Positions 1,442 through 7,534 of a stretch of 64,000 nt of DNA are shown here, piece by piece. Position 1 is the stretch's first letter. Each line of letters opens with the position of its first letter. The notes beneath the pieces were generated by a model. That model was not told where the DNA came from and searched no databases. It worked only from the letters and a program-made list of their open reading frames with translations. A program made the translations under genes and the position numbers. The stretch is from Candidatus Cloacimonadota bacterium (GTDB lineage: Bacteria; Cloacimonadota; Cloacimonadia; Cloacimonadales; TCS61). The stretch covers positions 62,001 to 126,000 of the forward strand of contig JAIPIH010000002.1 in the NCBI GenBank assembly GCA_021734835.1, read 5' to 3'.

Positions 1442-3922
1442 TTATTTTATTACAATACTTACTAATTTATCAGGAACAACGATCATCTTCACGATATTTT
1501 TACCCTCAATCGATTTCTTTACATTTTCCACTTCTAAAGCAGATTTTTTTATATCTTCAGTAGTTGCATCAGCAGAAACCTTTATTTTACCGCGTATTTT
1601 ACCCATTATCTGAATTGCATAAGTTATCTTATCTTTAACGAGAAAATCTTCGTTGAACTGAGCTGTGCCTGAATCGTGGAGAAGTCTATCATTACCAATG
1701 AGAATCCAAAGTTCCTCGCTTAAATGTGGAGCAAAAACATACATTAAATGAGGAATCGCAACACAGCTTTCCGCAAAAACTGCTTTTTCGAAATCATTCA
1801 ACTTTTCAACATCTTTTACGGCATAGACATTGTTCAGATGTTCCATTACCGCAGCAATTGCAGTATTGAACTGTAATCTGTTTTCAATATCATTGAGTGT
1901 TTTCTTAATAGTAAAATGAGTGCTGTAGCGTAGTTTTTTAATTTCTCCCTTCAGTTTGTTATCATCACTGGCAGCATCTTTATAGGTTTTGATCAATTCA
2001 AGATTTTTTGCAAATAAATGCCAGATTCTATTGAGAAATCTGAATGCACCCTTCACACCTTCATCACTCCATTCAACATCCTTTTCCGGAGGAGATGCAA
2101 ACAGCATGAAAACACGTACAGTATCAGCTCCATAGCGGTCTACAATGTACTGCGGGTCAACAACATTCCCTTTTGATTTGCTCATTTTAGCACCATCTTT
2201 CGTGACCATGCCCTGCGTTAGTAATCTGGCAAATGGTTCGTTGGAATTTACCAATTTTAAGTCGCGCATAAATTTATGAAAAAAACGAGCATACATCAAA
2301 TGCATAACAGCATGTTCGATACCACCAATGTATTGATCTACAGGTAGCCACTTAACAGCTAGTTCCTGACTGAAAGGTAAGGTGTCATTTTTGGGATCAA
2401 CATAACGCGCAAAATACCAGGAACTATCTACGAAAGTATCCATTGTGTCAGTTTCTCTTCTAGCCGACTTCCCGCATTGAGGGCATTTTACATTAACCCA
2501 CTCTTCTACAGAAAGAAGCGGGTTTTGACGTGTTTTACCCAATTCAACGTTTTCCGGTAGTTTTATAGGAAGATCTTCATCAGGGACAAGTACAGTTCCA
2601 CAATCATCACAATATATTATCGGAATTGGATTACCCCAATATCTCTGACGAGATACACCCCAGTCTCTCAATCTATAAGTAATAGTTTCTTTACCCATTT
2701 TATTCTCAAACATCCATTTGGAGATAGTTTTCAGAGATTTTTGGCTATCCATTCCGTCAAATTTACCAGAATTGACTAAAAATCCGGGTTCGACATAAGC
2801 ATCTGCCATTTCTTCAAGTATGAGATCACCGGATTTATTTTGAATAACCAGTTTCATAGGAATATTATACTTTTTAGCAAATTCAAAATCCCTTTGATCG
2901 TGAGCCGGAACTGCCATCACAGCTCCCGTTCCATAATCCATCAACACGTAGTTAGTGATCCAGATCTGAATTCTTTCATTATTTACCGGGTTTGCAGCAT
3001 ATTTTCCAGTAAAAAATCCTTCTTTTATTGTATCTTCGGCGGTCCTGGTTATTGAGTCTTCATTCAATACTTTATCACAGAATCTATGCATCTTGGAATC
3101 CTCAGATTCTGCTTTCAAAAATTCTATTATTATCGGATGTTCTGGAGGCAATGCCATAAAAGTACACCCAAAGATCGTATCAGGTCGCGTTGTAAAAACT
3201 TTTATTAATTGTTCAGAATTTTCCAGTTTGAACCAGATTTCAGTTCCTTGACTTTTCCCGATCCAATTAGTCTGCATAGTTTTAACGCGTTCCGGCCAAT
3301 CAATAACTCCGCTGAAATCAAGCAATTCTTCAGCGTATTCAGTGATCTTAAAAAACCATTGTTCAAGTTCCTTTTGATGTACTTCACTTTCGCAGCGCCA
3401 GCATTTTCCATTTTCAACTTGTTCATTAGCAAGGACAGTCTGACACTCTGAACACCAATTCTGAAAAGAAGTTTTCTTATAAGCTAAACCTTTTTCAAAC
3501 ATTCTTTTAAAAAACCACTGTCCCCATTTGTAATATTCAGGATGACAGGTACTGACTTCGCGTTCCCAATCAAATCCAAAACCCATCATATCAAATTGTT
3601 TTCTCATAACTTTGATATTTTCATCTGTCGTAATTCTTGGATGTGAATGATGTTGAATCGCAAAGTTTTCCGCCGGCATTCCAAAAGAGTCATAACCCAT
3701 TGGCTGCATTACATTAAAACCTTGCATCATTTTATAACGCGTAATTGCATCTGCTATAGAATAATTCGAAACATGTCCCATATGAAGAGCACCGGAAGGA
3801 TAGGGGAACATCGAAAGGACATAATAATTTTTCTTTTCTGTATCGTCTTCAGCATTGAAGATCTTTTTTTTCTGCCAGATATTCTGCCATTTTTTTTCTA
3901 TTTTTTCAAAAGGATATTCCAT
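1442..3922 (-). CDS. leuS: Leucyl-tRNA synthetase
   Basis: 826 aa; FPYPSGALHMGHVSNYSIAD (HIGH motif), editing domain, KMSKSKGNVVDP. Confidence 0.98.
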   Translation of the reverse strand: MEYPFEKIEKKWQNIWQKKKIFNAEDDTEKKNYYVLSMFPYPSGALHMGHVSNYSIADAITRYKMMQGFNVMQPMGYDSFGMPAENFAIQHHSHPRITTDENIKVMRKQFDMMGFGFDWEREVSTCHPEYYKWGQWFFKRMFEKGLAYKKTSFQNWCSECQTVLANEQVENGKCWRCESEVHQKELEQWFFKITEYAEELLDFSGVIDWPERVKTMQTNWIGKSQGTEIWFKLENSEQLIKVFTTRPDTIFGCTFMALPPEHPIIIEFLKAESEDSKMHRFCDKVLNEDSITRTAEDTIKEGFFTGKYAANPVNNERIQIWITNYVLMDYGTGAVMAVPAHDQRDFEFAKKYNIPMKLVIQNKSGDLILEEMADAYVEPGFLVNSGKFDGMDSQKSLKTISKWMFENKMGKETITYRLRDWGVSRQRYWGNPIPIIYCDDCGTVLVPDEDLPIKLPENVELGKTRQNPLLSVEEWVNVKCPQCGKSARRETDTMDTFVDSSWYFARYVDPKNDTLPFSQELAVKWLPVDQYIGGIEHAVMHLMYARFFHKFMRDLKLVNSNEPFARLLTQGMVTKDGAKMSKSKGNVVDPQYIVDRYGADTVRVFMLFASPPEKDVEWSDEGVKGAFRFLNRIWHLFAKNLELIKTYKDAASDDNKLKGEIKKLRYSTHFTIKKTLNDIENRLQFNTAIAAVMEHLNNVYAVKDVEKLNDFEKAVFAESCVAIPHLMYVFAPHLSEELWILIGNDRLLHDSGTAQFNEDFLVKDKITYAIQIMGKIRGKIKVSADATTEDIKKSALEVENVKKSIEGKNIVKMIVVPDKLVSIVIK

Positions 3923-3968
3923 ATATGTTAACTCCTGATTATTTTTTATTTGGTTTTTTAGAATTGTA

Positions 3969-4046
3969 TTATTTCCCCAAATAGGGGAGTAAAAGGAGAA
4001 GACAATTAAGAACTTCTTTGATCTGCATTTGTTTACCGTATTTCAT
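3969..4046 (-). CDS. Putative leucine-rich leader peptide upstream of leuS (MKYGKQMQIKEVLNCLLLLLPYLGK)
   Basis: ATG at 4046 preceded by AGGAG (complement of 4056-4060); 25 codons, 7 Leu including 5 consecutive (CTT CTC CTT TTA CTC), stop TAA at 3969; stop lies 46 nt before the leuS ATG. Confidence 0.6.
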   Translation of the reverse strand: MKYGKQMQIKEVLNCLLLLLPYLGK

Positions 4047-4198
4047 TAACAATCTCTCCTTATTAATTCTAAAGCAAATTTTGTATTACAAGACATTTGG
4101 TCAATTATATTTTATTGAGATCCTTTTTTTATTAACTTTTCACTTGCAAAATAAATGCAGATGTAAATATTTTATCAGTTGATTATAAGGAGGTAAAA

Positions 4199-4405
4199 AT
4201 GAATCTTATAGAGTATTTTAACAATAGAATAAAGGAGTACTTCACTATTTGGGATATAAAATTAGCTCAAGTAGCAGCTTTCTTGTTTTTTATAGTTATC
4301 ATTAAGTTGATCCCAGAGATCATTACACTTGATTATTGGGTTTATATTTTAGGCGCTGCTATAGCAGCAATCAGACCAATGTACATAAAGTTCATTAAGA
4401 AATAG
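4199..4405 (+). CDS. Small membrane protein of unknown function
   Basis: 68 aa ORF with AAGGAGG upstream of ATG and two hydrophobic stretches (VAAFLFFIVIIKLI, WVYILGAAIAAI). Confidence 0.6.
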   Translation: MNLIEYFNNRIKEYFTIWDIKLAQVAAFLFFIVIIKLIPEIITLDYWVYILGAAIAAIRPMYIKFIKK

Positions 4406-5668: not shown

Positions 5669-7534
5669 TCAATAAACAAAGACCACGCCGCTGGTAGGGA
5701 AGACCCATTCATTTTTAGCAGTACTGATGGATATTTGATGATCCGTTTTAACTAATTTAGGGAATTTGCTCTTACCAGAAAAGATCGGAACTGCTTCTAT
5801 ATTAACAATATTACTCTCAAATGAAATATCTACGCCTTGCGTCATTTCAATAATGTAAACGGATAATTGATGAGAATTTTTCGGATAATAGGTTTTAGTT
5901 GAGATCGAAAAATTTACTTCTTTTCCCATAAGCTCTTTAAGTTTAGGATGATAGCATTTTATCTCAATACTGCCGTCAGAGATCTTCATTTCATTGTATA
6001 ACTCAAGATCATTGATTTTCACGGAAGTTACAGAAAAAAACATTTTTTTTAAATCAATTTTGTTATCCAAGAGCCAACGATATTCGACATCATTTCGCAG
6101 GAAATATTTCTCCAGATCTTTCTCTGTTTTGGCACAGGCTACTATAAAGTGATCATTCTGAAGCTTTTTAGAAAAGGAGAGCTCAGTAGAAGTTAAATAA
6201 TAATCTGTAAATTCATTAGAATCCTCAAATTTTATTGAATGTTTGAAGTTTTTTCTATAGTGGATATCTTTATCTTTTTCAGCGAACATTCTTTTTAATA
6301 TATCTTCGTGAACTAAGCTGGCGATCTCTTTACTTTGCAGCCTCTGTTCGATAGCAGTCTCAATGATATCCCCAAGCTTTTTATCCGAAAGATCCTTAGG
6401 CATAAATTCACGGCGTAAGAGCGGTGAAGAATCAATTATTTTGCCATTTTGCGTATAATATCTTTTTGCTCTTCTTCCTATTTGAGAAACAAGTTCATAA
6501 CTAAGTCCGCCGAATAAATCAGTTAAATTTTCTGCTGTAATATCGTCGTGAGAATCTCCTAACATTGTGACAACATCGCCTACTTGGGGATCTGATATTT
6601 GTGAGATATCGAGTGCTGTCATATCCATACTTACTTTCCCAATTACTTTGCAAATGGAATTACGGAGTACTGCTATTCCCTTATTAGACAGCAGAAAATC
6701 ATAACCATCAGCATAGCCAACTGGTAAAATTGCATATTTTATTGTTTTAGGAGCAATAAATGTTTGATTATAACCAATTGAATCACCTTTTTGTGCTGTT
6801 TTGATCTGAGTTATGCGAGTTTTAAATGTCATAACAGGTTTCAGTTTTATTTTATCTTTCAGCGGTTTGTTGGAATAAATTCCGTAGGTTAATAATCCTA
6901 ATCTTACAAGATTTGTATAATTATCTGGGGAAAATATGACTCCACTGCTGTTTGCGATGTGGATGTACTTAGGTTTTTCATCTAATTTTGAAACAATTTT
7001 ATGAAATCTATCTGCTTGTAATTCAGTAAAAGCTATATCATTCTCAGCAGAAGCAAAATGTGAAAAAATACCTTCTATCTCAAGATTTGTTAATCTTCGG
7101 ATCTCTTTTATTTTTGACAAAGCATTTTGATAATAAAAACCACTTCTTCCCATGCCTGTATCAATATTCAAGTGGATTTTGTTTTTTCCCTTTTTATTCA
7201 TTGCTCTGGCAAAATCCATAGAAGAAACTGTAGGAATAAGGTCATACTGTAAAATTTGATCAATTTCACTGTTTAATGATGGCGACAGAATTATTATAGG
7301 AATTGATATTCCTTGATATCGCAATAGAATTCCTTCCTGCAAGTTAGCAACTCCCAAAGATACTGCACCACACTCTATCGCTTTTTTGGCAATTTGAAAA
7401 GCTCCATGACCATAGGCATCAGCTTTAACAATTTGCATAAAATTCGTTTGCGGACTGAAGAATTTTTTTAGTTGTTCAATATTATGTTGATAATTCCCCA
7501 GATCGATTTCTGTCCAACTTCTATCATCATTCAT
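5669..7534 (-). CDS. alr: Alanine racemase with a C-terminal extension of about 250 aa
   Basis: N-terminal part WTEIDLGNYQHNIEQLKKF...VKADAYGHGAFQIAK, GYADGYDFLLSN, RLGLLTYGIYSN, VSMDMTALDIS typical of Alr; the ORF continues to 621 aa where Alr is usually about 370. Confidence 0.92.
   Translation of the reverse strand: MNDDRSWTEIDLGNYQHNIEQLKKFFSPQTNFMQIVKADAYGHGAFQIAKKAIECGAVSLGVANLQEGILLRYQGISIPIIILSPSLNSEIDQILQYDLIPTVSSMDFARAMNKKGKNKIHLNIDTGMGRSGFYYQNALSKIKEIRRLTNLEIEGIFSHFASAENDIAFTELQADRFHKIVSKLDEKPKYIHIANSSGVIFSPDNYTNLVRLGLLTYGIYSNKPLKDKIKLKPVMTFKTRITQIKTAQKGDSIGYNQTFIAPKTIKYAILPVGYADGYDFLLSNKGIAVLRNSICKVIGKVSMDMTALDISQISDPQVGDVVTMLGDSHDDITAENLTDLFGGLSYELVSQIGRRAKRYYTQNGKIIDSSPLLRREFMPKDLSDKKLGDIIETAIEQRLQSKEIASLVHEDILKRMFAEKDKDIHYRKNFKHSIKFEDSNEFTDYYLTSTELSFSKKLQNDHFIVACAKTEKDLEKYFLRNDVEYRWLLDNKIDLKKMFFSVTSVKINDLELYNEMKISDGSIEIKCYHPKLKELMGKEVNFSISTKTYYPKNSHQLSVYIIEMTQGVDISFESNIVNIEAVPIFSGKSKFPKLVKTDHQISISTAKNEWVFPTSGVVFVY

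Follow-up and report, generated by a model that had tools for sequence, protein, structure and literature searches.

The leuS locus and its leader

The window, the whole stretch of 64,000 nucleotides analysed here, comes from a Candidatus Cloacimonadota MAG. On its minus strand lies leuS (1442–3922), which encodes a leucyl-tRNA synthetase of 826 residues (TIGR00396, 1073.7 bits); the gene opens with an ATG at 3922, preceded by the Shine-Dalgarno sequence AGGAGTT (minus strand, 3930–3936). A divergent gene begins at 4199 on the plus strand, leaving a gap of 276 bases, and because the upstream neighbours are divergent, the leuS transcript most likely begins inside this gap. A TTGACC on the minus strand (4099–4104), with a -10-like stretch, ACAAAATTTG (minus strand, 4084–4075), located 3′ of it, is the probable -35 box of a promoter for the leader and leuS. 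This hexamer is kept in relatives: 32 of 33 leaders, among them that of the GC-rich f4 genome described below, have it no more than 80 nt 5′ of their start. The divergent gene itself (4199–4405, plus strand) is a hydrophobic ORF of 68 residues which has the gap in common with the putative leuS promoter and which has no Pfam or NCBIfam matches. The window also encodes, on the minus strand, an alanine racemase of 621 residues (5669–7534), of which residues 6–360 match alr; for the other ~260 residues, neither Pfam nor NCBIfam gave a match.

Within the gap, a leader ORF of 25 codons, MKYGKQMQIKEVLNCLLLLLPYLGK, runs on the minus strand from an ATG at 4046 to a TAA ending at 3969, 46 nt upstream of the leuS ATG. 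It is preceded by the Shine-Dalgarno sequence AAGGAG (minus strand, 4056–4061; AGGAG at 4060–4056). Five leucine codons, CTT CTC CTT TTA CTC, occupy 3987–4001 and end in the pair TTA-CTC (3992–3987). The hairpin UCCCC-UAUUU-GGGGA (minus strand, 3974–3988; TCCCC at 3988–3984 and GGGGA at 3978–3974) begins within the last leucine codon, CTC, and overlaps the end of the ORF. Both the leucine-run ORF, with its AGGAG, start codon and distance from leuS, and the hairpin are as the initial annotation described them, and the hairpin has an invariant form in relatives.

Conservation and distribution in Cloacimonadota

The 5′ regions of leuS were gathered across the phylum, in which the family of the window is designated f1. 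The leader is present in 31 of the 32 f1 genomes with a readable leuS 5′ region and, outside f1, in one genome of f4 and one of f8. After removal of duplicates there are 33 distinct leaders; some of the statistics given here are on 34 rows, which include one duplicate. Sampled genomes of f2, f5, f6, f7, f9, f10, f11, f12 and f13 lack the leader. The only readable f1 member without it is G011 (L008/L036), in which leuS sits behind a long, co-oriented gene and no block of TTGACC and leader is visible upstream. In a tree of LeuS, the leader-bearing f1 genomes group together, with one loss inside the group, and the f4 and f8 sequences belong to a neighbouring group. The simplest reading, although not a proven one, would be that of an old element lost several times.

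A covariance model of the motif, built without L025 and L026, matches 30 of the 125 phylum genomes searched, once in each, and the match is located at leuS wherever the neighbouring sequence is readable. In two cases the match lies at a contig end and the leuS behind it is truncated; a further match, in G023, is weak, unconfirmed and without a readable motif. The strict motif pattern has a single occurrence in the window's own genome, at leuS. A search for further leucine-run leaders ahead of leuS, beyond those already collected, recovered L009 and gave one other match, L058. Before ileS, which mostly lies directly behind another gene, no leader is obvious; repeats such as 'cgagattccgctctcga...atcaacatcggaatgttgattta' occur upstream of ileS in L199, L202 and L208, which belong to the genus of the window. 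The biosynthetic gene leuA was considered as a second target of the leader and rejected, being almost absent from f1: it was found (TIGR00973) in one of 40 f1 genomes, G020, a count to be read with the incompleteness of the MAGs and the possible divergence of LeuA in mind. Given this scarcity, most f1 bacteria would depend on external leucine, and they are probably leucine auxotrophs.

Several lines of comparison bear on translation of the leader. Within 115 nt on the 5′ side of the motif, 43 ATGs preceded by a Shine-Dalgarno sequence occur, all of them in the leucine frame and none in the two other frames. An end-to-end reading of the leader is free of stops in the leucine frame in all 34 rows; of the other two frames, one is open throughout in 4 rows and the other in 12. 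Leaders in relatives are 21–33 codons long, and between the sister species L166 and L167 the start codon differs (ATG/GTG) with start function kept. From this comparison we infer that the ORF is translated in the leucine frame. Repeated codons for the cognate amino acid within a translated leader, as expected of an attenuator, are thus present, translation being judged by comparison. The body of the peptide evolves in a near-neutral manner in the close pairs compared, which is expected because sensing would take place at the level of codons.

The most strictly kept part of the coding sequence is the pair TTA-CTC, an invariant YTR-CTC read as Leu-Leu in 33 of 33 leaders; its first codon is TTA in 28, TTG in four and CTG in one, and its second is CTC in all 33. 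CTC is the rarest leucine codon among the genes of the window (7.3%), and its first C is invariant though mostly unpaired. The three codons preceding the pair encode leucine in 26, 17 and 14 of the 33 leaders, so that leucine is common there but dispensable. Proline stands directly 3′ of Leu-Leu in 32 of 33. The exception, L009, has leucine in its place and ends in ...LLLLV, so that the proline is dispensable. The hairpin has the form UCCCC-N4/5-GGGGA in 30 of 33 leaders. That of L009, UCCUC-GUUU-GAGGA, carries a two-sided compensatory change from C-G to U-A, and the stems of L025 (UCCC-UUCG-GGGA) and L026 (CUCCC-CUUG-GGGAG) are shifted. A covariation count on the hairpin alone is uninformative save for L009, the stem being nearly invariant.

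Alignment of relatives had been proposed in the initial annotation as a check on the leader, with the absence of a short leucine-rich ORF counting against it. The 33 distinct leaders settle this point, and the comparison confirms the leucine-run leader upstream of leuS as real, far beyond chance. The reading of the leader as a stalling attenuator has fared well in that the ORF with its leucine codons is conserved and stalling is most likely what these codons serve, but the invariant part consists of YTR-CTC and the hairpin and not of the whole run.

The spacer between leader and leuS ranges from 40 to 227 nt among relatives. In L002, L003, L006 and L009, hairpin-bearing inserts of ~45–170 nt separate the leader hairpin from the leuS Shine-Dalgarno sequence; their sisters have no such inserts, so that the spacer tolerates insertion.

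Pairing partners of the leucine codons

Co-evolution was tested by comparing duplex energies within species with those between species. The strongest partner of the leucine-codon strand is the Shine-Dalgarno region of the leader itself, for which the mean energy is -10.93 kcal/mol with the species' own partner vs -8.29 kcal/mol across species (z -6.9; 0 of 50,000 permutations as good). The signal persists when the two GC-rich genomes are left out (z -6.7) and when each genus is represented by a single leader (30 draws; median z -3.9, p 0.0002), and in a co-evolution map of 12-nt windows it is confined to one antiparallel band. Folding of whole leaders gives this pairing a mean probability of 0.71, and in all but one of the 34 rows the value exceeds 0.4. 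The resulting helix, P1, has AAGGAG (4056–4061) as its 5′ strand, within a predicted 5′ arm at about 4061–4042, and the leucine codons (3987–4001) as its 3′ strand. Because the strongest co-evolving partner is the leader's own Shine-Dalgarno sequence, the leucine codons form an anti-Shine-Dalgarno strand, and it is the start of the leader itself that this strand closes. In L016, L018, L025 and L124, the leucine run is gone and the pairing is kept; the run is therefore partly anti-Shine-Dalgarno sequence, and that part is owed to complementarity with the leader Shine-Dalgarno sequence and not to the coding of leucine.

The initial annotation had located the switch in a pairing of the leucine run with the leuS Shine-Dalgarno sequence. 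Co-evolution between these two is weak (z -2.0, p 0.022; genus-collapsed p 0.06), whereas the leader Shine-Dalgarno sequence is the strong partner. A whole-fold swap test of the same pair gives 0.36 for own and 0.29 for cross combinations (p 0.017; genus p 0.035). It may be that this is a second, competing pairing. Most of it, however, is intrinsic complementarity, and here a caveat already attached to the proposal, that CTCCTT codons are complementary to any Shine-Dalgarno sequence, was well founded. When folding is followed state by state, a ribosome stalled on the leucine codons leaves the leuS Shine-Dalgarno sequence more open than an initiating one does in 25 of 34 rows, but this is so by construction, the leucine strand being blocked, and it counts for little. 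Two further candidates were rejected: masking of the leuS Shine-Dalgarno sequence by codons 4–5 of leuS, where the codon varies (CCT/CCA/CCC) and is unconserved, and a plus-one frameshift from the leader into leuS, for which the frames agree in some relatives only.

Between leader and leuS no intrinsic terminator or U-tract was called, and the absence of a T-run after the hairpin, remarked on from the outset, is borne out. The sequence 3′ of the hairpin is AAATAATACAATTC, and this region is A-rich in all relatives. The co-evolution maps give one strong helix, without a second leader-internal alternative of the kind that a mutually exclusive antiterminator would form. The leader is placed outside the terminator-type attenuator family because the terminator and antiterminator features, when tested, were absent. 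The window contains no T-box (RF00230) or other Rfam family; for the T-box in particular, a search of 371 bases at a lax setting gave no match, and none of the 125 phylum genomes has one, positive controls being detected. The contrast once drawn with T-box control in Gram-positives is hence inapplicable to this host, a member of the Cloacimonadota.

A candidate attenuator without a terminator

The leader is, with good probability, an attenuator of leuS of the leader-peptide type, in which a translating ribosome senses how much charged tRNA-Leu is available and which operates without an intrinsic terminator. With ample Leu-tRNA, the ribosome would clear the leader and both helices would re-form, shutting leader initiation and keeping leuS expression low. 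With scarce Leu-tRNA, it would halt on YTR-CTC and hold P1 and the hairpin open; taking away the anti-Shine-Dalgarno strand, the stalled ribosome would bring leuS expression up. The direction, in which starvation raises leuS, is adopted by analogy with the logic of known aminoacyl-tRNA synthetase leaders. A more specific and tentative version is a terminator-less, self-gating attenuator, in which the leucine codons would be both the sensor and the anti-Shine-Dalgarno strand on the leader's own start. Each ribosome finishing the leader would then close the leader start behind itself, and only a ribosome stalled for want of Leu-tRNA would keep the leader open and leuS on.

Three candidates for the output can be ranked, with low confidence. 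That the leucine-codon strand sets the leuS start free comes first, as a plausible choice that still falls short of even odds; prevention of termination by Rho in the G-poor stretch 3′ of the hairpin comes second, and protection of the mRNA, which is doubtful, third. A finely tuned structure extending from leader to leuS is unlikely, given a spacer that can be as short as 40 or as long as 227 nt and that accommodates inserted hairpins. The second candidate can also be framed as a Rho attenuation of its own, resembling tna or mgtL, in which a stalled ribosome would cover a Rho entry site 3′ of the hairpin and Rho would terminate before leuS once the leader is cleared. This is a possible though rather unlikely account. 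It agrees with the lack of a detected intrinsic terminator, with the presence of rho in 38 of 39 f1 genomes and with the ~25 nt 3′ of the hairpin, which are nearly G-free and enriched in C positions, and it would tolerate variable spacers. However, the spacer as a whole is not enriched in C (13.8% vs 13.3% in AT-rich leaderless relatives), there is no conserved rut, and the G-poor stretch before the Shine-Dalgarno sequence may merely keep that sequence unstructured. Many f1 genomes encode a second, shorter Rho-like protein (about 350–400 aa, about 300–350 bits) beside the full Rho.

The letters of the hairpin stem are almost invariant, beyond the need of a plain hairpin, as might be the case if a protein read this element and the ORF were incidental; autoregulation by LeuRS, as for thrS, would be an example. 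Such an element is improbable, since an incidental ORF accounts neither for the placement of 43 of 43 Shine-Dalgarno-preceded ATGs in the leucine frame nor for YTR changes that are synonymous only, and the stem is compensated by U-A in L009 and shifted in L025 and L026. An unregulated leader gene that raises leuS translation through ribosome reinitiation, a model put forward for leader genes (PMC4833913), would require nothing more than a short ORF directly upstream. It predicts neither conserved leucine codons, specificity for leuS, the hairpin nor closure of the leader Shine-Dalgarno sequence, and with stop-to-start gaps as long as 40–227 nt it is very improbable. Arrest by the nascent peptide, with a ...LLP peptide stalling the ribosome and itself acting as the sensor in the manner of TnaC or SecM, might be read from the proline after Leu-Leu in 32 of 33 leaders and from the stop codon directly after it in several genera (...LLP and stop). 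The nearly neutral leader body, the variable stop position and the ...LLLLV ending of L009 argue against it, and the conservation of the proline is explained by the position of its codon in an arm of the hairpin; this is the least probable of the explanations considered.

Relation to known systems

The ermC and cat leaders are translational attenuators, in which leader translation and masking of a Shine-Dalgarno sequence suffice without a terminator and a drug is sensed. The leuS leader likewise combines a translated leader with Shine-Dalgarno masking and lacks a terminator, but for the leuS Shine-Dalgarno sequence the signal of masking is weak (p 0.02–0.06), and Leu-tRNA is proposed to be sensed in place of a drug. 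The T-box (RF00230) senses tRNA charging upstream of aminoacyl-tRNA synthetase genes, whereas the leuS described here has a translated leader instead. In pheM-pheST of enterobacteria, the leader peptide contains codons of the amino acid of the synthetase, and an intrinsic terminator follows. The leuS leader shares with it the use of codons cognate to the synthetase encoded downstream; it differs in that no intrinsic terminator was found. The name pheST occurs in Seliverstov et al. (2005, PMC1262725).

In a search limited to open-licence papers, no reports on Cloacimonadota leaders were found, and descriptions of regulatory leaders in this phylum seem to be rare or lacking in that literature. 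The leuS leader points to amino-acid-responsive control of an aminoacyl-tRNA synthetase in probable leucine auxotrophs, members of a phylum where no T-boxes were detected. Its anatomy, in which the regulatory codons would be under a second, RNA-level constraint through pairing with the leader's own Shine-Dalgarno sequence, bears on how leaders can work without a terminator. It also calls for caution with other leucine-run leaders, whose CTC and CTT codons may be anti-Shine-Dalgarno sequence.

The closest precedents are actinobacterial. For Streptomyces avermitilis and S. coelicolor, Seliverstov et al. (2005, PMC1262725) predicted classical attenuators in front of leuS, and these resemble the Cloacimonadota leader in having an ORF with leucine codons upstream of leuS and a ribosome-read logic. 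However, they possess an antiterminator and a terminator with poly-U, whereas the leader described here, from another phylum, has no terminator and has its own Shine-Dalgarno sequence closed by the leucine-codon strand. In the LEU element of actinobacterial leuA, a leucine run pairs with the main gene's Shine-Dalgarno sequence to form the base stem of a conserved pseudoknot (PMC1262725). The leucine run of the Cloacimonadota leader is similarly able to pair with a Shine-Dalgarno sequence, but its co-evolving partner is that of the leader itself, and the gene is leuS. Leader-peptide attenuation of leuS has thus already been predicted, in Streptomyces; the terminator-less anatomy with closure of the leader Shine-Dalgarno sequence is a new variant.
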